A stretch of 60,619 bases of DNA from a virus. Below the pieces are notes generated by a model that saw only the letters and a list, made by a program, of their open reading frames with translations, was not told where the DNA came from and did no database searches. This document shows, in pieces, positions 14,466-53,113 of the stretch. Both the position numbers and the translations under genes were made by a program. How positions within the stretch are numbered: the stretch's first letter is position 1; the number at the start of each line of letters is the position of its first letter. Where the stretch lies: the IMG/VR virus record IMGVR_UViG_3300008262_000057, positions 1 to 60,619 of that record. The stretch is one strand, 5' to 3'.

Positions 14466-14510
14466 AAGTAGATATATAGTAACGACTCCTGAATCCTTAC
14501 CCTGACGAAA

Positions 14511-14546
14511 GCAAAAACCCGGACGTTTCTACGTTCGGGTTTTTTA
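14511..14546 (+). terminator. Extra terminator without a gene
   Basis: AAAAACCCGGACG / CGTTCGGGTTTTTT, 32 bases after a GATATATAG box. Confidence 0.75.
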
Positions 14547-34647: not shown

Positions 34648-37128
34648 ATGAAAAAATATCTCATATTATTTTTTATACTGCTTCCTTTTTTATCTTTTTC
34701 TCAAATTAAGTTATCAGGAAAGACCTATTCAAAATCCGAAAAATTATATTTCGTTCATATAGTAATTAAGGACGCATCACAGAAAGTGATTTCAACGACA
34801 TCAGACCAAGATGGGAATTATAACATCTCGCTCTCTCAAGGAATATATGATATCTCAGCAACATATGTTGGATATAAAGATTTTAAAAAGCAAATAGATC
34901 TTAATACAGATTCTAATATGGATATCGTGATGGAAGAAAGCATCACAGGATTAAGCGAGGTTGTTGTCAGATCGGTTCCACAGAAAACAACAGAGATTTC
35001 TGTTATTAGAACTCTTAGAAATAGTAGCGTTGTTTCTGATGGAATTGCAATAGATTTTATTAAAAAAACCCCAGACAGAAATGTTGGAGATGCACTCAAA
35101 AGAGTAAGCGGGGTAACAATACAAAATGATAGATTTGTTTTGGTTAGGGGGTTGGCAGACAGATACAATTCAGCTTTATTAAATAAAACTCCTTTACCAT
35201 CAACCGAACCTGATAGGAGAGCATTTTCTTTTGATATTATTCCTACATCTCTTATCGATAATATTATTGTTTCCAAATCTGCAGCAGCGAATCTTCCCGG
35301 AGATTGGTCTGGTGGACTAGTACAAATCACAACTAAAGAGATCTCTGATAACTTTCTCAACATCTCATTTGGTGGAAGTGCAGGATTAGTGTCCTCGTTT
35401 AAAAATTTTAATGCCGTTGATCCTGTCAATTTTCCATCGTCTTTTCCTTCAACATATCGGTACAGAATAAGTGGAAATGGTGATAAAAGAGCATTCACGA
35501 AATTGATATCAAATCCATTAATGGAATCATTTACTTCAATCCCCAATTTAAATGGAGGGATGAGTGCTGGATTTAAATTGGATAAAATTAATGTTCTTCT
35601 AAGTTCTACAGTTCGTAACACATATTCTCTTAATTATATAGAAAGGACAGACTACCAATCTTCAACTGAATTAGCTTACGATTACAGGGACACTATGTAC
35701 TCTAAAAGATTTTCTGCAAATGGTCTCTTGAATCTTACCTATTTGGGGAAAAACAGATACAGCTGGAAAACCCTATTTAATTATCAAAGCGATGATAGTT
35801 ATCTTTCAAGAATTGGTCAAAACCTTGATAATGTTCAGGATGTTAGAAGCAATTCATCCAATCATATTAATAACATTGTAGTCAATTCTCAATTTGACGG
35901 AAAAATAAAAACCATAGATTTTAATCTTGGGTATAATTTTATCTTCAGAGAACAGCCAGATTACAGGGTAAACCCGATTACAAAATCTCTAGGTATAAAT
36001 GAACCATATGCAACTGCTTGGAGAGACACTTACAGATTTTGGAGTGTTATGGATGAGAATTCTTTCAATGGAAATTTAAATAAGGACTTTGGAAAAATCA
36101 GGGTTGGCGGAGGGTATCTCAAAAAAATAAGAGGATTCAATGCAAGGGTTTTTAGGTATCTTTCCACTGATATGCTAGACGAGATCACAAATAATACTGA
36201 CAGATATAATGCAGAATTTGATCTTGGTAGTTTATATAGCATGTATGAGAATGATTTTGGTAAATGGAAATTAAACACTGGATTAAGAGGGGAGTATAAC
36301 ACTTTTGATGTATTAACTGCAGATTTTAGTGGACAAAAGGTAAATGTAAATAGAGAGTATTTGGATATTTTGCCCTCTCTAAATCTTTCTTATAATCTTG
36401 AAAAAACAAAATATAGATTCTCGTTAAGTAAAACCCTTTCTAGACCGGAGTTTAGAGAGGTTGCTAATTTTGCTTATTATGATTTTATCAGAAATGCCCA
36501 ACTTTTGGGAAATCCCAAATTAGAAAAATCTGACATTTATAATTTGGATATTAAATATGAATTCTATCCAAAAACTGGAGAAAACTTTTTTGTATCATTT
36601 TTCGGAAAAAATTTTATAAGACCAATAGAACAGATAGTAGCTGATGGATCAGTACCTTCTAATCTATTACTTACTTATACAAATCCAGAGAATGCTATAC
36701 TCTATGGAATGGAGCTAGAGTTTAGAAAAAAAATAAACGAATGGTTTGATTTTTACACAAATGCTTCAATTATGAATTCCGAGGTAGAAATAAATGGCAG
36801 AAAGAGACAATTGCAGGGACAATCTAATTATGTTTTAAACGGAGGAATAAATTTGAACAGAAAAAATAACACACTAAATTTAACTTACAATAGAGTAGGA
36901 GACAGAATTTCCGCTGTTGGATTTCAAGGATATCCAGATATCTTTGAAAACAGCAGAGATGTTCTAGATGTTACATTTCTACATAAAATAAAATCTGGAG
37001 AGATCAAAATATCAGTTAGTGATGTGTTCTCCCAACCCTCTGTATACTATCAAAAGATTTCAAACAGAAATCTTATAAAAACAAATAATGAAAGTATAGT
37101 TTCGATATCAATGAATATAAATCTATAA
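34648..37128 (+). CDS. TonB-dependent outer-membrane receptor
   Basis: 826 residues. Signal peptide (MKKYLILFFILLPFLSFSQ), an N-terminal carboxypeptidase-regulatory-like beta domain (about 20-100, SGKTYSKSEKLYFVHIVIKD), a plug domain (about 125-235, with VGDALKRVSGVTIQNDRFVL and ISVRGLADRY-like RGL) and a beta-barrel to the C-terminus. This is the SusC-type layout of Bacteroidota, though shorter than SusC. It would import a ligand across the outer membrane using TonB. No late-type promoter was found; the upstream GGGTAGATAG...GACCCACATG is different from neighbours. Very unusual in a phage: possibly host-derived. Confidence 0.85.
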   Translation: MKKYLILFFILLPFLSFSQIKLSGKTYSKSEKLYFVHIVIKDASQKVISTTSDQDGNYNISLSQGIYDISATYVGYKDFKKQIDLNTDSNMDIVMEESITGLSEVVVRSVPQKTTEISVIRTLRNSSVVSDGIAIDFIKKTPDRNVGDALKRVSGVTIQNDRFVLVRGLADRYNSALLNKTPLPSTEPDRRAFSFDIIPTSLIDNIIVSKSAAANLPGDWSGGLVQITTKEISDNFLNISFGGSAGLVSSFKNFNAVDPVNFPSSFPSTYRYRISGNGDKRAFTKLISNPLMESFTSIPNLNGGMSAGFKLDKINVLLSSTVRNTYSLNYIERTDYQSSTELAYDYRDTMYSKRFSANGLLNLTYLGKNRYSWKTLFNYQSDDSYLSRIGQNLDNVQDVRSNSSNHINNIVVNSQFDGKIKTIDFNLGYNFIFREQPDYRVNPITKSLGINEPYATAWRDTYRFWSVMDENSFNGNLNKDFGKIRVGGGYLKKIRGFNARVFRYLSTDMLDEITNNTDRYNAEFDLGSLYSMYENDFGKWKLNTGLRGEYNTFDVLTADFSGQKVNVNREYLDILPSLNLSYNLEKTKYRFSLSKTLSRPEFREVANFAYYDFIRNAQLLGNPKLEKSDIYNLDIKYEFYPKTGENFFVSFFGKNFIRPIEQIVADGSVPSNLLLTYTNPENAILYGMELEFRKKINEWFDFYTNASIMNSEVEINGRKRQLQGQSNYVLNGGINLNRKNNTLNLTYNRVGDRISAVGFQGYPDIFENSRDVLDVTFLHKIKSGEIKISVSDVFSQPSVYYQKISNRNLIKTNNESIVSISMNINL

Positions 37129-45435: not shown

Positions 45436-45445
45436 GATATATAAA
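45436..45445 (+). promoter_or_regulatory. Late-type promoter for structured RNA A
   Basis: GATATATAAA ending 5 bases before the RNA's closing stem. Confidence 0.6.
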
Positions 45446-45449
45446 TCAG

Positions 45450-45576
45450 AAAAAATCCTCATTCCGTGCGAAAGAATACACGACTTTCCACGTATACTTT
45501 TTGAGAGAGATCTCCGAAGCCACACGACCTTCGGGGCGCATTCTCCGTAAGCGAATTACAGATTCGAGGGTTTTTT
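45450..45576 (+). ncRNA. Structured RNA, copy A
   Basis: About 127 nt behind a late promoter. AAAAAATCCTC (45450-45460) closes with GAGGGTTTTTT (45566-45576). Inside: hairpin CGTG-C-GAAAG (45465-45474) with CTTTC-CACG (45484-45492), a conserved TATACTTT, a variable hairpin CCGAAG/CTTCGG (45514-45534) and hairpin CGAAT/ATTCG (45552-45566). The 3' T run could terminate it. The second copy at 52619 shares the conserved parts and keeps the pairing where the sequence differs. It could be a free small RNA or a 5' leader of 45597. Confidence 0.65.
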
Positions 45577-45596
45577 CTAGAATAAAACCAAAGACC

Positions 45597-46037
45597 ATGG
45601 GATTTCTAGAAAAGATTTTTAACCCAACCTCACAAACGCAGGTTCCAGACAAGCAGAACCGTTTCAACGCAATTCTACAGAGAATGATGGCCACGAGATG
45701 GTACATCACAGCATTAACACTTTTCACCTTTGTGATTATTGCTGGTGGTATTTTAGTGTCTATTGCTTCAGGTACCCAAGTAAATCAGGAATGGAAAGAG
45801 ATTCTCCTTCTAATGCTCGGCGCATTTATCGGATCTTACAACAGGGTTATTGATTATTGGTTCAATAACGATCAGAGAGATCAAGTACTTATTCAGAAAG
45901 TTGACGAGGAAGATGATGATCCAGGAACAGAAAAGAAAACCTTTGCATTCCAGGAAGAGATAAAAAATAACGATCCTCTATCTTCTTCTGCTTCTCAATC
46001 AAAAAATGAATCATCTTATGAAGAAGAATCTATTTAA
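45597..46037 (+). CDS. Membrane protein downstream of structured RNA
   Basis: 146 residues with two hydrophobic helices (about 40-60, WYITALTLFTFVIIAGGILV; and 70-88) and an acidic, disordered C-terminus. Longer frames run back through the structured RNA and are rejected. Could be a holin, by topology only. Its last 20 bases overlap the next gene. Confidence 0.55.
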   Translation: MGFLEKIFNPTSQTQVPDKQNRFNAILQRMMATRWYITALTLFTFVIIAGGILVSIASGTQVNQEWKEILLLMLGAFIGSYNRVIDYWFNNDQRDQVLIQKVDEEDDDPGTEKKTFAFQEEIKNNDPLSSSASQSKNESSYEEESI

Positions 46038-46524
46038 AATCCTGATTTCGGTTTTTTTACTGATGGTTTGCATTCCTGTATTTTCACAGGAAAAGAAGAT
46101 TACTGTAGGTGATATAAAAAATAAAATATCGATAGGCAATCTCACAGGGTCTAGACAATTGACCTTCGGATTTAAAAATATACTACTGGAATTTTTACAG
46201 GAAAAAGACTATCCAGTAGTTGAAGATGATGAGGCTTATGATATAAAAATAAGTCTAGATCTACTTTTCTTCGATGTTGAAACTACCAAATCTAACCTGT
46301 CTGTTTTTCATAGAGATAATGCAGAAACAGTATTAAGGGTTAAAGCTTATGCATATGATTCATCTGGCAAGAAAATTAAAGAGGTAGTTATCACAGAAAA
46401 ATCATCAGAGATCTCAGTTTCAACCCTCGTAATAGACGAAGGTGGCGGTATAAATCAACAATCTGTCTCTAATGTTATTAAAAAGGTTTGTGATTCCGCT
46501 ATAAAACAATTATTAACAAAATGA
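46018..46524 (+). CDS. Exported protein, LptE/CsgG-like size, unknown
   Basis: 168 residues. Signal peptide MKKNLFKILISVFLLMVCIPVFSQ. The mature part alternates strands and helices (IGNLTGSRQLTFGFKNILLE) and ends in a helix (VIKKVCDSAIKQLL). In order of elements it is reminiscent of CsgG-type periplasmic domains, but the match is weak. Overlaps the next gene by ATGA. Confidence 0.5.
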   Translation: MKKNLFKILISVFLLMVCIPVFSQEKKITVGDIKNKISIGNLTGSRQLTFGFKNILLEFLQEKDYPVVEDDEAYDIKISLDLLFFDVETTKSNLSVFHRDNAETVLRVKAYAYDSSGKKIKEVVITEKSSEISVSTLVIDEGGGINQQSVSNVIKKVCDSAIKQLLTK

Positions 46525-48170
46525 AAAAGCTAATTTTATTTTTTGGGATATTTTTAATATCTCTCACGACGTTTGGTCAATTAAGTGTTACGCAAACAAT
46601 TACCCCTACTACAGGACTGAAGGTTGGTGACACATTAACTGTAAAATATACAGTAACAAGGGGAACTACAACCCCTCGTTATTTTTGGTTGAGATACTCA
46701 TTTAACAATAAAGCTTTGGCTATGGTACCAAATAGTACTGTCTTTACACAGGGATCATCAACACAAACGTTCTTTACTCTTTGGAATAATTATGCATTTA
46801 CTCCATCCCAAACTGCGGCAGCAACTAGCTTGTATGCACAGTATCAAGCTACTCCTTGGGCTTACACTGCAAACAATGATTGGAATGTTGGGCAATTAAC
46901 AGTTCAAAGAACTGATGCATCGATCAATGGCGACATTGCAACTCAAAAATATGTATTAAAGGATCAAAACACGTATAACAATATACATAAACTGGATTTA
47001 GCATACGCCATTAATGATACGTCAGTAAACATTTCTCCAATCACAAAAAGCTCTACTGATCTATCATTAACAAACGTAACTGGTAATACTTCCCAATTCA
47101 AGGTTAAAGTGTTATTTCCTCAGGGATATACGATCACAGATCATAATGTTCAATTAATGAAATTAAAAAATGATGGAACGGGAGCAATTGATTGGTCTGT
47201 TCCGCCAATTGCCCAATTACCATTAGATGCTACAGGCGAAGCACTATTTACAACTCAGGTTAAAGTTGGGGATTCTGTTGGGGTGTTTGTATCTCCCGCT
47301 TCTCAGAAAGCTTGGATGAATAATGTCATTACTGTATCTGATGCGTACAAAGCATTCCTAGGACATTCTCAAACAGACATTAGTGGAAATCCAACCTATT
47401 TTACCTATCCTAACTTAGAAAAACTTGTTGGTAATGTATCAAAAAATGATGCAATTTTTAATGAAACAGATTCCTATTATCTATTTGCATACGTGATGGG
47501 TCAAGACGTTTCAGCGAATGCTTTTATTCCAACACAAACCGCAACCTCCTGGAGATGGAATAGTGGTTTATTAAACCAAAGCTGGTTGGATGGTAATATT
47601 AAGAACAAGGTAACTATTGATACCCCAATTAAAGAAGTGTATGCTGTATTTGCATGGGGTGGAGATTTAGATTGGTCACATTCATCTTCGACTGCAGAAA
47701 TTGTAAGCAGAATTAATGCAGGTCAATATACAAATTCAGTAAACTCGATTAATGCTAAAACGACGATGTCAACTCAATCCATGGCTTACAGAACAGAAGC
47801 ATTGGAAACAGCTAAATTAAGTGTATCGTCATCCTTAGAAGCTGGCAAAGTTGTTTTAAAAGCAACATTAACTAAAGAAGAATTAGCAGGACTACAAGTT
47901 ATTATGCAGTACGATAACACAAAACTAACTTTAGATAATGTAATATTTGATGCAGGAAGCACTATTACCAATTTCTCTACACACGACAATGGTAGATTAA
48001 CTTTCGGTTCTATCGATCAGCTAAAGACTGCTAGAATTAAAACCGGAACACCATACAAATTGGTGTTTACTCCAAAAGTAAATCTACAAAATACCGCAGG
48101 ATTATTCTATTTCGTGTTAGCAGATGCAGTAGATGCAAATGGTAACAAGGTCGACCTGACTATAGAATAA
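46521..48170 (+). CDS. Exported protein with dockerin- and cohesin-like modules
   Basis: 549 residues. Signal peptide MKKLILFFGIFLISLTTFGQ. An N-terminal beta region (about 20-130), a middle beta region, a degenerate dockerin-like helix pair near 305-325 (NDAIFNETDSYYLFAYVMG), and a C-terminal cohesin-like domain (about 430-549, LQVIMQYDNTKLTLDNVIFD). Secreted and probably held at the cell surface. Paralogous in layout to the next gene. Confidence 0.65.
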   Translation: MKKLILFFGIFLISLTTFGQLSVTQTITPTTGLKVGDTLTVKYTVTRGTTTPRYFWLRYSFNNKALAMVPNSTVFTQGSSTQTFFTLWNNYAFTPSQTAAATSLYAQYQATPWAYTANNDWNVGQLTVQRTDASINGDIATQKYVLKDQNTYNNIHKLDLAYAINDTSVNISPITKSSTDLSLTNVTGNTSQFKVKVLFPQGYTITDHNVQLMKLKNDGTGAIDWSVPPIAQLPLDATGEALFTTQVKVGDSVGVFVSPASQKAWMNNVITVSDAYKAFLGHSQTDISGNPTYFTYPNLEKLVGNVSKNDAIFNETDSYYLFAYVMGQDVSANAFIPTQTATSWRWNSGLLNQSWLDGNIKNKVTIDTPIKEVYAVFAWGGDLDWSHSSSTAEIVSRINAGQYTNSVNSINAKTTMSTQSMAYRTEALETAKLSVSSSLEAGKVVLKATLTKEELAGLQVIMQYDNTKLTLDNVIFDAGSTITNFSTHDNGRLTFGSIDQLKTARIKTGTPYKLVFTPKVNLQNTAGLFYFVLADAVDANGNKVDLTIE

Positions 48171-48173
48171 TTT

Positions 48174-50480
48174 ATGAAAAAACTCGTATTCATATTTTTA
48201 ATATTGTTGAATTCAGTCTTGGTTCTAGGGCAGCAAGTGAACTCCCCAGACCCAAAAACCTTTATTCAAGGCACAGTTTCTCAAGATGCTAGTGGATTCT
48301 CTCTTAGTGGATTTAATTCAACTGTAACCCTATTATGCGCTATCGGGTTACCACAAGCACCAACAGGAACAACTTTTAGTTTAACTACAGTTTCGGGTCT
48401 TACCCCTGCAAGCGGTTATACTATGAACGGTAATAAAACTCGTTTGGCATTTACTGGAACAATGGCTAATATTAATGCTGCCTTAGCAACATTAAAAATA
48501 AACACAACAGCAACTGCAGGTGCAATTAACATTTCAGTATCTGCAACAGTAAACCCTACTGGTTATTTTTACAATCCAACAAACGGACACTTTTATAGAC
48601 CTATATCAACCGGAGCAACTTATACAAATGCAAGAACATTATCATCTCAACAAACATTCAAAGGTCAACAAGGATATTTGGTAACGATAACATCAGCAGA
48701 TGAAGATGCTTTTATATTTGCTAATGTTCCACAAGCTAGTATTTGGTTTGCACTAACGGATGAAGCGGTTGAAGGTCAATGGAGAATTGATGCAGGACCG
48801 GAAGCAGGAACTTTAATAAAAACTGCAAACGGACAACTTAATGGAAACGTAGTAGGACAATATAATAACTGGGCCGGTGGTGAACCAAACAATTCTGGTA
48901 ATGAAGATTATGCTGTAACTAAATGGGGTGGTGGAAATCAATGGAATGATTTACCTAATAATTTTAGCTGTGCTTATGTAGTTGAATTTGGAACTTGGAC
49001 TAATCCTGATGACCAAACTTTTACCGAATTCTATTCCAATAGTGTAACACATTCAAATGGTGAAACCTTAAGGTTACAATTTACCTTCGATTTTGGTAAC
49101 AATATAGACGAGACCAAATTTAAAACCAAAATGTTTACATATACTGATTATGTGTCTGGACCTTACAATGAAGCGGTTACTGGAACTACCTATACATCTT
49201 TAAATGGATTAGGAAAAACAGATAAAACAAATGATATTGATCTAGTAAAAATAAATTCCGGACAAAAGGCAACTATATCAACAGGACAGGCTGAATTTTC
49301 TTATGTTAACATATCAAACAACACTACAACATTATACATTGATCTGTCCAGATTTGGTGGAGTAGATCCGTCAACAATAAGTAATGTCAGTATTTTAGAT
49401 GCATATAACGGTCCAGTAACATATCAGCAAACTTCAACATATTGGGCACATTATATAGTACCCTCAGCATTAACAAAAATCACTAACGGGACGTCTTCAT
49501 TTAATTCAAGTATAAGAAATGCTGGAAATAATAACTGGGCATTTATGTCCAATATATCATTTTCACAAAATCAAATTTTTAAAAATCATGCGATCTTTTT
49601 TCAATCTTATAATTCAAGCGAACTTCAGACTTTACTTTCGCAGATTGTAACAATTTCAGATGTTTATTTAGCATTTAAAGAATTTTCAGACAGGGGTATA
49701 TTTGGAAATTCAAATGGACAGTATTTTCAATCGGGTATTCAATTTCAAAATGCTGATGTTAATCATGATAATGTTTTTGACGAGACTGATTGCTTTAAGT
49801 TGCTTAAGTATTTGCAGGGAACAGAAAATCTTTGGGAAAGTGCAGCTCTTCCATATGTAATGAAAATAGTTCCAAAATCCACCTATGATGATATTAATAA
49901 GAATAACTGGAACACATTCGGGGCTTATGAATTTCTGAGATCCAAATATCCTATCACTTTAAATGATGGTGTGTTAAATTCCCATGTATTAAATGTTACA
50001 TGGAAAGGTGACGTAAATCTTTCGCACTCTCCTGCACAATCCGCGAGCGGATCTATAGCAAACCAATCTCTTTCTTTTTCTTCTGTTGCAATGCAGAATG
50101 TCGTTAATAGCGAGTCACCCACAGCTTATATTGTTTCACAAATTTCTGGAGATGTCTTGGATGTAATTATAAAATTCAATTCAAAATCCAATCCTATAGT
50201 CGGTACACAATTTCAAATTAATTACGATAACACTAGAATTAAATATGTTAGTACAGATTTTAAAATAAAGGGATCTCCATCAAATTTTGATGCTAACAGG
50301 GGATCTTTTATAAATCTTGGATCCTTAGTTACCAGCGGCGAACTTCTAGACCCGCTTGCAGAATACAGATTAACTTTTAAACTAAAAACAAACCTTTCAA
50401 ATTCTCTAGGATTGATTTCTATAGCATCTAACGAAGCGGTAAATCAAACTGGGCAATCAATAAAAATAAGAATAGAATGA
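48174..50480 (+). CDS. Exported C-type-lectin / dockerin / cohesin-like protein
   Basis: 768 residues. Signal peptide MKKLVFIFLILLNSVLVLGQ. A cadherin-like N-terminal beta region; a C-type lectin fold at about 139-276 (FKGQQGYLVTITSADEDAFI, NNWAGGEPNNSGNEDYAV, NQWNDLP); a good dockerin Ca-loop at about 526-550 (ADVNHDNVFDETDCFKLLKY); and a cohesin-like C-terminus (651-768, VGTQFQINYDNTRIKYV). The lectin EPN motif suggests binding of mannose-type sugars. Starts 3 bases after the previous stop. Confidence 0.7.
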   Translation: MKKLVFIFLILLNSVLVLGQQVNSPDPKTFIQGTVSQDASGFSLSGFNSTVTLLCAIGLPQAPTGTTFSLTTVSGLTPASGYTMNGNKTRLAFTGTMANINAALATLKINTTATAGAINISVSATVNPTGYFYNPTNGHFYRPISTGATYTNARTLSSQQTFKGQQGYLVTITSADEDAFIFANVPQASIWFALTDEAVEGQWRIDAGPEAGTLIKTANGQLNGNVVGQYNNWAGGEPNNSGNEDYAVTKWGGGNQWNDLPNNFSCAYVVEFGTWTNPDDQTFTEFYSNSVTHSNGETLRLQFTFDFGNNIDETKFKTKMFTYTDYVSGPYNEAVTGTTYTSLNGLGKTDKTNDIDLVKINSGQKATISTGQAEFSYVNISNNTTTLYIDLSRFGGVDPSTISNVSILDAYNGPVTYQQTSTYWAHYIVPSALTKITNGTSSFNSSIRNAGNNNWAFMSNISFSQNQIFKNHAIFFQSYNSSELQTLLSQIVTISDVYLAFKEFSDRGIFGNSNGQYFQSGIQFQNADVNHDNVFDETDCFKLLKYLQGTENLWESAALPYVMKIVPKSTYDDINKNNWNTFGAYEFLRSKYPITLNDGVLNSHVLNVTWKGDVNLSHSPAQSASGSIANQSLSFSSVAMQNVVNSESPTAYIVSQISGDVLDVIIKFNSKSNPIVGTQFQINYDNTRIKYVSTDFKIKGSPSNFDANRGSFINLGSLVTSGELLDPLAEYRLTFKLKTNLSNSLGLISIASNEAVNQTGQSIKIRIE

Positions 50481-50827
50481 CGAGGGTTTTACTAACTATA
50501 TTAATTGTTTCATCTCTTTGGGGGTGTCGAAAAATGGAAATAGAGCCAATTCCTCCATCAAGGAATGAGGACATTTTTTCTACCAAACAAGCATCTGTCT
50601 CCGACGATGCCCCCATAAATTTCAATTTAAAAATCGAAGGAATTTACACGTTAACTCTCTTTGATCCTGTGAGCCAGCAGGTAGTAACAAGAGAAAGAAT
50701 TTTTGGAATTACAGGAAATAACACATTCAAATTATACACGAAGGCGTTACCAACGAATCAAGTTTATTTATTGTTACAAGATGAAAACAATAATGAAATC
50801 GGAAAAACGCTTCTAGTGATAAAATAA
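50477..50827 (+). CDS. Small lipoprotein with T9SS-CTD-like Ig fold
   Basis: 116 residues. Lipoprotein signal with Cys17 (TILIVSSLWGC). The mature domain (YTLTLFDPVSQQVVTRERIF, then NTFKLYTKALPTNQVYLLLQ) has the strand order of type-A C-terminal domains of the Bacteroidota type IX secretion system. Overlaps the lectin gene by ATGA. Paralogue of the next gene. Confidence 0.55.
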   Translation: MTRVLLTILIVSSLWGCRKMEIEPIPPSRNEDIFSTKQASVSDDAPINFNLKIEGIYTLTLFDPVSQQVVTRERIFGITGNNTFKLYTKALPTNQVYLLLQDENNNEIGKTLLVIK

Positions 50828-50838
50828 AAAATAAAAAA

Positions 50839-51207
50839 ATGAAAAAAATAATTTTAGCAGCATTTATTTCATCCATTGTTATGGGATGTAACAAGATGGA
50901 CATTGAAATGCCTTCACCTCCAGCCCCGGATCGATTAGCTATTGAATCTTCTGTTGGTATCAAATTGGAATCACCTTTTGTTACCTCAGAAGTATCAATG
51001 AACGTTAAGAGTGATATAACTCAAACTGTAAGTATTAGGATCTATGATATCTCAAATAGAGTTGTTTCCAAAGAGACTGTAAACGTAAAGGCTGGAGATA
51101 ATATTTTAAAAGTTTATACCTCAGCTTTACCATCTTCAGCATATAGGATTGGCTTATATGATTCAAAAGGAAACGAGTTAGGTATTACCGATTTTAACAA
51201 GCTTTAA
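50839..51207 (+). CDS. Small lipoprotein with T9SS-CTD-like Ig fold
   Basis: 122 residues. Lipoprotein signal with Cys17 (AAFISSIVMGC) then MDIEMPSPPAP. The domain SIRIYDISNRVVSKETVNVK, GDNILKVYTSALPSSAYRIG and a final Lys-Leu closely follow the type-A sorting domain pattern (IYDxxGRxV ... GxN ... LxxGxY ... KL). Whether it sorts or just folds likewise is open. Confidence 0.6.
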   Translation: MKKIILAAFISSIVMGCNKMDIEMPSPPAPDRLAIESSVGIKLESPFVTSEVSMNVKSDITQTVSIRIYDISNRVVSKETVNVKAGDNILKVYTSALPSSAYRIGLYDSKGNELGITDFNKL

Positions 51208-51245
51208 ATCTAGAAGGAGGGAGCAATTTATGACACGACAAATTG

Positions 51246-52598
51246 ATGAAAAAATTAATAATATTTTTTTTATTGACAATAGCCCTCAAGGTAAATGGTC
51301 AAATCTTTACTCAGACTTATGTTGATAAATGTACAGGGGAAATAAAAACAGTAACTACAACACCCATGGGAAATGGTATGGTTGTAGTTGCTTTTTATAA
51401 TCAGATAAAAACATTTTCGAGCACTGACTTGACCAACGGAACGGTTCAGACGTGGCTTAATCAGGTTTATTCTGATTATAATTCGAGGCCCTGTCCTGTT
51501 ATCAGTGTGGTCCAGCAAACGGTAACCCAAGCAGTTGCCCAACAAGCAGCTGCAGCCGCAGCTTCTGCTGCATCCTCTGCAGCAAGTTCATCAGCTAGTG
51601 CTGCAGCAAGTTCTTCTGCCAGTGCTGCAGCAAGTTCTTCCGCTAGTAGTTCTGCAGCAACTTCATCGGCTAGCTCTCCACCACAGAGCAGCTCGTCGCA
51701 AAGCGGGGGTAGTTCCTCTTCAAATTCGTCGCAAAGCGGAGGTAGCTCATCATCTTCAGAATCAAAAAATGAAACTAAATCTGAGGGAACAAAATCGGAA
51801 AGTAAATCAGAGGAGAAGAAAGAAGAAAGTAAATCTGAATCTAACGAAGAGAAGAAGGAGGAAAAGAAAGAAGAATCCAAGGAGGAGAAAAAGGAGGAGG
51901 ACAAGAAAGAAGATAAAAAAGACGATAAAAAGAAGAAGCAACAAAATACGAATCCAACTTTAATTGCATCAGATCTTGCAGTTACCCAGAGTGCAGATGG
52001 CAGATACACCGCGATGATTTCAACCGGCATAAGTAAGTCTTCTATGACGGGAACGAGCTCGTGGGGTTTAACCTCTTTGATATGGGCAACTTTTGATCAG
52101 TTTGCTCTAAACGGGGGCTATACCAAAATGAATTTTGATAAGGGTAAACTAAATAATATAAAATCATATTCGATGACCGCTGCTTATTTGCAGGGAAATT
52201 TTATGATCATGCAGGGACACACATACATTAGGCCACATCCTAAGATTGGAACATATGGATACAATGTGGGTGTTATCAGTTTACTGATAAAGAATGGAAA
52301 CAGGTATGACTATTCTCTTTCGAGCTCTTTAGTTGGATTTTGGACCAAGCCATATCAGATGAACAAGAGACTTTCTATCTCACCGCAGGTTTTTATAACA
52401 TCTTCTCCCATAGCTTGGAACCCGTCAACAAACCAGACTGTAGTTAGCAAGGATTTTGGTTATATGGGAGGTGCTTCGTATGACTATAAATTAACCAAGA
52501 GATTTGGAATGAATTTTAGTTACAGATTTGCTGGATCGACAAAAGAAGGATCCAAGATACTTCACAATTTCATGATAGGATCAAGAATTTTGTTATAG
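51246..52598 (+). CDS. Exported protein with low-complexity linker and C-terminal barrel
   Basis: 450 residues. Signal peptide MKKLIIFFLLTIALKVNGQ; a short N-terminal domain (20-95); an Ala/Ser tract (about 100-150) and a Ser/Glu/Lys tract (150-220); then about 225 residues of alternating strands ending in a hydrophobic residue (IGSRILL), as in outer-membrane barrels. The long charged linker may span the periplasm or cell wall. The low-complexity DNA leaves all frames open here, giving false ORFs. Confidence 0.65.
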   Translation: MKKLIIFFLLTIALKVNGQIFTQTYVDKCTGEIKTVTTTPMGNGMVVVAFYNQIKTFSSTDLTNGTVQTWLNQVYSDYNSRPCPVISVVQQTVTQAVAQQAAAAAASAASSAASSSASAAASSSASAAASSSASSSAATSSASSPPQSSSSQSGGSSSSNSSQSGGSSSSSESKNETKSEGTKSESKSEEKKEESKSESNEEKKEEKKEESKEEKKEEDKKEDKKDDKKKKQQNTNPTLIASDLAVTQSADGRYTAMISTGISKSSMTGTSSWGLTSLIWATFDQFALNGGYTKMNFDKGKLNNIKSYSMTAAYLQGNFMIMQGHTYIRPHPKIGTYGYNVGVISLLIKNGNRYDYSLSSSLVGFWTKPYQMNKRLSISPQVFITSSPIAWNPSTNQTVVSKDFGYMGGASYDYKLTKRFGMNFSYRFAGSTKEGSKILHNFMIGSRILL

Positions 52599-52604
52599 AA
52601 AAAA

Positions 52605-52613
52605 GATATATAG
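52605..52613 (+). promoter_or_regulatory. Late-type promoter for structured RNA B
   Basis: GATATATAG ending 5 bases before the RNA's closing stem. Confidence 0.6.
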
Positions 52614-52618
52614 AAGTG

Positions 52619-52724
52619 AAAAAATCCTCATTCCGTGCGAAAGAACACAAAAGCCTTTCCACGTATACTTTAATGGTAGAGTTAGAAAACTCTCAAAAAA
52701 GCGAATTTAAGATTCGGATTTTTT
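52619..52724 (+). ncRNA. Structured RNA, copy B
   Basis: About 106 nt, homologous to copy A. AAAAAATCC (52619-52627) closes with GGATTTTTT (52716-52724). Hairpin CGTG-C-GAAAG (52634-52643) with CTTTC-CACG (52655-52663) has an identical stem and bulged C; the variable hairpin here is GAGTT-AGAA-AACTC (52679-52692); hairpin CGAAT/ATTCG (52702-52716) is the same. Precedes 52799. Confidence 0.65.
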
Positions 52725-52798
52725 CACATGAGAATAAAAAGAAGAACTGTATTAAATGTATATGTTTCTGATGACAAAAAAGAATATAATTTAAAATC

Positions 52799-53113
52799 AT
52801 GGCAGAAGAAATGCAAGAAACAGAAGGAACTTGGACTGGTCTGAAAAAAACAATTGTGGGAACGTTAGCTACAGTTGTAACAGCCGGTGGTGCTTGGCTC
52901 GGAACTACTCTTTTCGGGGGAGGTAGTGACAATGCTGCTCCAGCTGCTGCTCCAGCTCCGATTATTAACATTACCAATTCTAACCAGCAAGCTCAGCAAG
53001 CTGCAGGAGGTAAAACAGTAATAATCAAAGAAAAAGCTTCCTCTGAAAAACCAGCAGAAAAGAAAGAGGAAAAGAAAAAAGACGAATGGACCAAAGAGGA
53101 GCCTAAATGGTAA
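52799..53113 (+). CDS. Membrane-associated protein with Ala/Pro and Lys/Glu tail
   Basis: 104 residues: a Gly/Ala/Thr-rich hydrophobic segment (about 14-44, TIVGTLATVVTAGGAWLGTT), an Ala-Pro linker and a Lys/Glu tail. Follows the second structured RNA by about 75 bases. Function unknown. Confidence 0.55.
   Translation: MAEEMQETEGTWTGLKKTIVGTLATVVTAGGAWLGTTLFGGGSDNAAPAAAPAPIINITNSNQQAQQAAGGKTVIIKEKASSEKPAEKKEEKKKDEWTKEEPKW

Follow-up and report, generated by a model that had tools for sequence, protein, structure and literature searches.

A Structured RNA with Two Copies per Phage, in Two Constant Gene Neighbourhoods, in a Group of Giant Phages

Two Copies of an Uncatalogued RNA

The window, which is the whole stretch of 60,619 nucleotides that was analysed, belongs to a record representing 66 kb of a large phage. 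It contains two copies, W1 and W2, of a structured RNA whose fold is conserved across related phages while the letters change. This is a new clade-specific RNA family, although in general kind, as a structured leader or small RNA of a phage, it is familiar. The structure of the RNA is secure and its function is not. In our estimate there is an even chance that it constitutes the first ~105–140 nt of two transcripts, as a 5′-terminal cis leader for two operons of membrane and exported proteins. A computationally well supported RNA family absent from the catalogues is thereby added to a poorly known giant-phage group.

The two copies, their boxes and the genes that follow them are on the + strand. 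Copy 1 (129 nt, positions 45449–45577) was delimited by R1/R2 model matches, folds and covariation, and copy 2 (108 nt, positions 52618–52725) by model matches and folds. Two segments sharing blocks in the same order had been reported in an earlier note on this DNA, and both were found where it had placed them; the addition of a closing G-C pair widened them to the limits given here. A 26-base block, AAAAATCCTCATTCCGTGCGAAAGAA, occurred twice in the window and in none of 100 shuffles, so that its sharing by the two copies was far beyond chance.

The MFE folds of both copies reproduced the closing stem and the three hairpins (bulged-C, variable and terminal) previously proposed. In copy 1, the 5′ strand of the closing stem, GAAAAAAUCCUC (45449–45460), is near-invariant in the relatives and pairs with GAGGGUUUUUUC at 45566–45577. 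The stem encloses hairpin 1 (45465–45492), with a bulged C at 45469 and an ACACGA motif at 45478–45483 in its loop, the variable hairpin 2 (45497–45551, from the folds), with a second ACACGA at 45522–45527 in the apical loop, and hairpin 3 (45553–45565, from the folds and pair counts). In copy 2, the fold pairs GAAAAAAUCC (52618–52627) with GGAUUUUUUC (52716–52725) around hairpin 1 (52634–52663, bulged C at 52638, also visible in the pair counts), the variable hairpin 2 (52668–52701) and hairpin 3 (52703–52715). The U-G pair in one closing stem and U-A in the other were correctly described. Compared with dinucleotide shuffles, the MFE folds had z values of -3.2 for copy 1 and -2.7 for copy 2, and of -4.4 and -3.3, respectively, once the closing G-C pair was included.

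Distribution among Related Phages

A near-identical record of 132 kb (G001) overlaps the window record, and a 219-kb record (G010) starts within the same TROVE gene. When a model of the window copies was searched in the phages sharing TROVE, three phages that are more distant proved to have exactly two copies apiece, and a scan of viral contigs for the promoter and 5′ strand pattern yielded additional copies. The refined covariance model R2, of 115 positions, recognised two copies in G000, G001, G005, G007, G008, G013, G014, G016 and G017; the fragment G015 yielded a single copy. With the covariance model the pair recurs in seven further phages, within the same gene neighbourhoods, and 17 distinct sequences of about 105–140 nt were obtained across the clade. 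The R2 search of 19 sister records, with lengths reaching 321 kb, returned no copy. Two extra R2 matches with E of about 0.08–0.1 in G000 and G008 were discarded, one being a 25-base chance match and the other a genuine copy read on the wrong strand. The pattern matches L049, L050 and L051, with the duplicates of L051, were likewise chance matches.

Exact-sequence scans of the viral contigs with the hairpin-1 and hairpin-3 blocks detected near-identical phages only, and the promoter-plus-5′-strand pattern found nothing in the genome contigs. With copy 1 as the query, blastn found no match among 50,697 phage records, so that no isolate carrying the RNA is known here. The major capsid Gp23 (PF07068) had no match in three records, nor in the control genomes, which makes this comparison uninformative. 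Rfam 15 gave no match in the window at the gathering threshold, and chance-level matches only for both copies at E<=10, in agreement with the earlier opinion that the RNA belongs to no known class. ARAGORN called no tRNA or tmRNA gene in the window, and a limited literature search returned no description of the RNA family.

Evolutionary Evidence for the Fold

The covariance-model search proposed as a check of the earlier claim, namely a conserved phage non-coding RNA or leader, produced homologues with compensatory changes, and the claim is supported by the pair of copies and the double-sided changes in seven other phages. In the alignment of 14 sequences based on the covariance model, 92% of the cells were paired. 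Double-sided changes occurred at 10 of 27 pairs (24 cells), including four pairs of hairpin 1 (helix 2 of this alignment); 10 such pairs were reached by 2 of 500 shuffles. The covariation score was reached by none of 500 shuffles, and sliding the partners destroyed the signal. These pair statistics lean towards structure since the alignment was fitted to it. A cleaner test took the structure from one sequence alone and counted the pairs broken in a near relative. Broken pairs were well below the null for L045/L064, L053/L061, L048/L062 and W1/W2 (P 0.000–0.006), and pair conservation was not significant in L046/L057, L052/L058 and L062/L054.

The first 13–15 bases were nearly invariant and the interior diverged almost completely. 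The 5′ invariance is partly by construction, as the pattern scan required those bases; the copies found with the model of the two window copies are independent of the pattern. The 5′ A-run and the 3′ U-run have matching lengths (5/5, 6/6 or 7/7) in most sequences, the exceptions being L045/L064 and L058/L060, where the U-run is interrupted. In G017 an A-to-G change, GAAAGAAUCC, is still paired, via G-U. Hairpin 1 was earlier described as constant with a bulged C, and this description applies to the window species only: the bulge is missing in the copies of G005, G007, G008 and G013.

The fold z value of the + strand was negative in all 17 sequences (-2.3 to -6.7). An RNA read from the minus strand is not favoured because the G-U-type changes are compatible with the + strand only, but minus-strand z values were similar in several copies. 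A coding function was rejected because relatives differ by indels whose lengths are not divisible by three.

Promoter-Like Box and Downstream Genes

Each copy is preceded by a GATATATA box with 5 bases in between, as was correctly noticed before. The promoter-like boxes are GATATATAA at 45436–45444 for copy 1 and GATATATA at 52605–52612 for copy 2. The window contained 12 occurrences of GATATATA versus 2.7 expected, and the + strand of G001 contained 15 occurrences of GATATATAA versus 1.2 expected. Most GATATATAA sites are located 12–69 nt 5′ of an ORF. Among those with a distant ORF, most precede a small RNA, the TROVE-adjacent RNA described below, the phage tmRNA or the tRNA cluster. In this distribution the box resembles a promoter that serves protein genes as well as stable RNAs. 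It may be a late promoter, given its likeness to the T4 TATAAATA and the genes found behind it. Several proteins encoded behind GATATATAA (window positions 24873, 26050, 28024, 32486, 42175 and others) have common N-termini of the form MKHLKxFExF or MKRIKLFEAW, somewhat reminiscent of the T4 capsid-targeting sequences.

An ORF follows the RNA, mostly within about 20–40 nt, and no second GATATATA box lies between them. The neighbourhood of copy 1 is constant, with an AAA_33 kinase-like gene on one side and an operon of exported proteins on the other, and so is that of copy 2, where an MSEET/MAEEM gene comes next. The same genes are thus found downstream across the relatives and the RNA is on the coding strand, as expected for a cis leader. 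The sister records possess the gene found downstream of copy 2, where it mostly comes directly after the previous gene, without the 5′ element. The claim that both copies precede membrane-protein genes stands, with one correction. The first ORF 3′ of copy 1 (45597–46037) encodes a product with two hydrophobic stretches and the conserved small membrane-protein gene 3′ of copy 2 (52799–53113; alignment A3, 338 viral relatives) a product with one, all seen by eye, but in the window species a 38-codon ORF starting at 52728 sits between copy 2 and the latter gene.

According to the protein encoded downstream of copy 2, the closest isolate is Flavobacterium phage immuto, in which annotated lectin and cohesin genes adjoin the homologue. 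Exported proteins are also encoded at 46521–50480 in the window, one of them with a C-type lectin match and weak cohesin matches. The region 34648–37128 encodes an outer-membrane protein of the TonB-dependent-receptor type (PF14905, PF07715, PF13715), an unusual cargo for a phage. The relationship to immuto and the presence of this protein point to a host that is probably a member of the Bacteroidota.

A Possible 5′-Terminal Leader or Terminator

The pairing of the two ends is the most conserved property of the RNA, and the element is found ahead of the same two operons, with two copies per phage in eight phages. For these reasons the cis leader is favoured. In this model, transcription from GATATATAA would start with the first G of the closing stem or no more than a few bases from it. 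The 5′ end would therefore be born double-stranded, GAAAAAAUCC being paired with GGAUUUUUUC shortly 5′ of the start codon. The stem should protect the mRNA against 5′-end-dependent decay and should prevent the A-rich region around the start from being covered.

An alternative partner for the U-run exists in five sequences of copy 1, where it can pair with the GGAAAAA(A) beside the AUG. Just after the RNA, an inverted repeat UUUUUUCC...GGAAAAA(A)-UG was observed in copy 1 of L046, L057, L053, L061 and G017, overlapping the U-run of the closing stem and the start codon. It belongs to two lineages, L046/L057/G017 and L053/L061, between which the sequence differs and the pairing is kept; the window copies lack it. 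The competing U6CC/GGA5-7-AUG hairpin was about 0.4–5 kcal/mol from the best fold in L046, L053, L061 and G017. As the U-run is shared by both pairings, formation of the closing stem and masking of the start site would be alternatives, constituting a switch.

Leaders of the ompA and T4 gene 32 type, which have 5′-terminal stems, stabilise bacterial and phage mRNAs. The likeness lies in a structured 5′ UTR with a helix that includes or adjoins the 5′ end; the difference is that here three further hairpins lie between the 5′ end and the bases, close to the start codon, to which the closing stem joins it. Because the letters change fast and the ends stay paired, this RNA makes it directly testable what pairing of the 5′ end with the start-codon region does in phage mRNAs.

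The closing stem with its U-run also looks like an intrinsic terminator, which speaks against the leader. One rival reading is an intrinsic terminator or attenuator that would control how far transcription reads through into the operon, its structured loop being unusually large. The order of A-run, stem and U-run is that of other terminators of this phage (for instance at about 14510–14545), and most copies have a U-run of 5–7. Yet the loop would measure about 85–115 nt, the operon has no other evident promoter, and the near-invariant 5′ strand would be left unexplained. In L058/L060 the U-run is broken up and the stem is kept, so that a role in sealing the ends fits better than termination. 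We regard this minor rival as improbable.

The ACACGA(C) Motif and a Possible Free RNA

The main rival to the leader is a free trans-acting non-coding RNA, starting at the closing stem, ending at the U-run and acting apart from the downstream gene. It may for instance be a CsrB-like decoy, presenting the loop ACACGA(C) to a factor that reads this motif before the start codons of other genes. The motif AACACACGAC was the most enriched just before the start codons of the window (25–30-fold, at 10–11 of 95 starts), and was also enriched in this position in G007 and G016. It is found right before the start codons at 2438, 3641, 7754, 8997, 9657, 10120, 11325, 12646, 15462 and 53150, that is, about ten genes, and may be an unusual translation-start or regulator-binding motif. 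The free RNA gains weight because the loop ACACGA(C) is this very motif. ACACGA was present in four of eight lineage representatives, with P 5e-6 by shuffles, a value which is optimistic because it was through the loops that the motif originally drew attention. It is mostly unpaired: W1 has two such loops, and L046, L057, L053 and copy 1 of G017 have one each. All copies have paired ends and a U-run at the 3′ end, and the tmRNA and tRNAs share the GATATATAA box. Two other RNAs of this phage that follow the box, the TROVE-adjacent RNA and the tmRNA (at a distance of 16 nt from an ORF), are likewise located just before an ORF, so that adjacency is not diagnostic of a leader.

On the other side, ACACGA(C) is missing from W2, L047, L048, L054, L062 and copy 2 of G013, and therefore cannot be the whole function. 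The U-run of L058/L060 is interrupted, and a role in cis accounts better for the strictness with which synteny with the downstream operons is kept. We consider a free RNA possible but doubtful. It is rather unlikely that the RNA is a novel type of phage regulator at the head of its transcript, with loops that copy the ACACGAC found before the start codons of many other genes; these would draw off the factor reading the motif and so move translation between gene sets, with the closing stem toggling the start of its own operon. Shine-Dalgarno pairing is little used in the Bacteroidota, and the occurrence of ACACGAC at both start sites and RNA loops offers a concrete regulatory hypothesis in such a setting.

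Sponge RNAs of the CsrB/CsrC type have several loops with a start-site motif. Some copies described here similarly show a translation-start-site motif in hairpin loops, but it is ACACGA(C), with one or two per RNA, and it is missing from several copies. The phage-derived sRNAs reviewed in PMC12197685 are also short structured phage-encoded RNAs.

The Phage Ro60/TROVE Protein and Its Adjacent RNA

The phages encode a Ro60/TROVE protein, so the reading of the small RNAs as Y RNAs, partners of this protein, was examined. The phage protein matched the TROVE proteins of the PDB at 1.9e-13 with a six-sequence profile and is 49% identical to gp540 of Bacillus phage G. TROVE was present in five of nine RNA-bearing records, the others being fragments of 21–53 kb, and in none of 19 sister records. 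This co-occurrence may be a single inherited event. Like bacterial and phage Y RNAs (Yrn, YrlA), the small RNAs measure about 100 nt, have paired ends and coexist with Ro60/TROVE in the phage, and the window copies show a helix in which a bulged C adjoins GAAAG, an arrangement shared with Y RNAs (PMC4030889). However, the bulged C is not conserved, being missing in relatives whose TROVE proteins are 79–83% identical; neither copy has a Y-RNA match in Rfam; and the small RNAs are not located beside the TROVE gene and have no recognised tRNA-like domain. The TROVE-adjacent RNA carries the TROVE-linked motif GAAGCGG-N-AGUUACUUC, which all 17 small RNAs lack. This indicates that the small RNAs are probably a different family and probably not Y RNAs. 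The Y-RNA reading, to which we give very little credence, was rejected on the motif and bulged-C tests.

A candidate conserved non-coding RNA of ~400 nt lies directly 5′ of TROVE, beyond the window end (L021:9538-9978; G001 about 61726-62166). Seven loci were aligned, and a conserved block was found on 10 contigs. This RNA is bounded by a GATATATAA box and an intrinsic terminator of its own, and has no match in Rfam. It contains GAAGCGG/GACGCGG...UUACUUC elements. Such elements form repeats in phage G, within the gap that precedes TROVE, and are found beside TROVE in other jumbo phages and in two Lachnospiraceae contigs. Many of them abut tRNA-like domains, which is the anatomy described for bacterial Y RNAs with the tRNA-like domain of YrlA (PMC7790460). 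The TROVE-adjacent RNA is probably the partner of the Ro60 protein that the phage encodes. In PMC12282133, Y RNAs of mycobacteriophages and proposed Y RNAs of Listeria phages are mentioned, citing Chen 2014.

Beside TROVE genes, GAAGCGG-N-CAGUUACUUC was observed in five near-copies in Bacillus phage G, 5′ of gp540 (L162:1442-2500), and also at L313, L315, L326, L332, L337, L294, L202 and L221, often abutting tRNA-like domains. These loci seem to be Y-RNA arrays of jumbo phages. The phage also encodes a tmRNA with the tag DVELSTMTFEDAMSFVGADYAIAA (L018:4810-5192; G001 104810-105192) and 21 tRNAs (L018/L019; G001 about 106856-129152).
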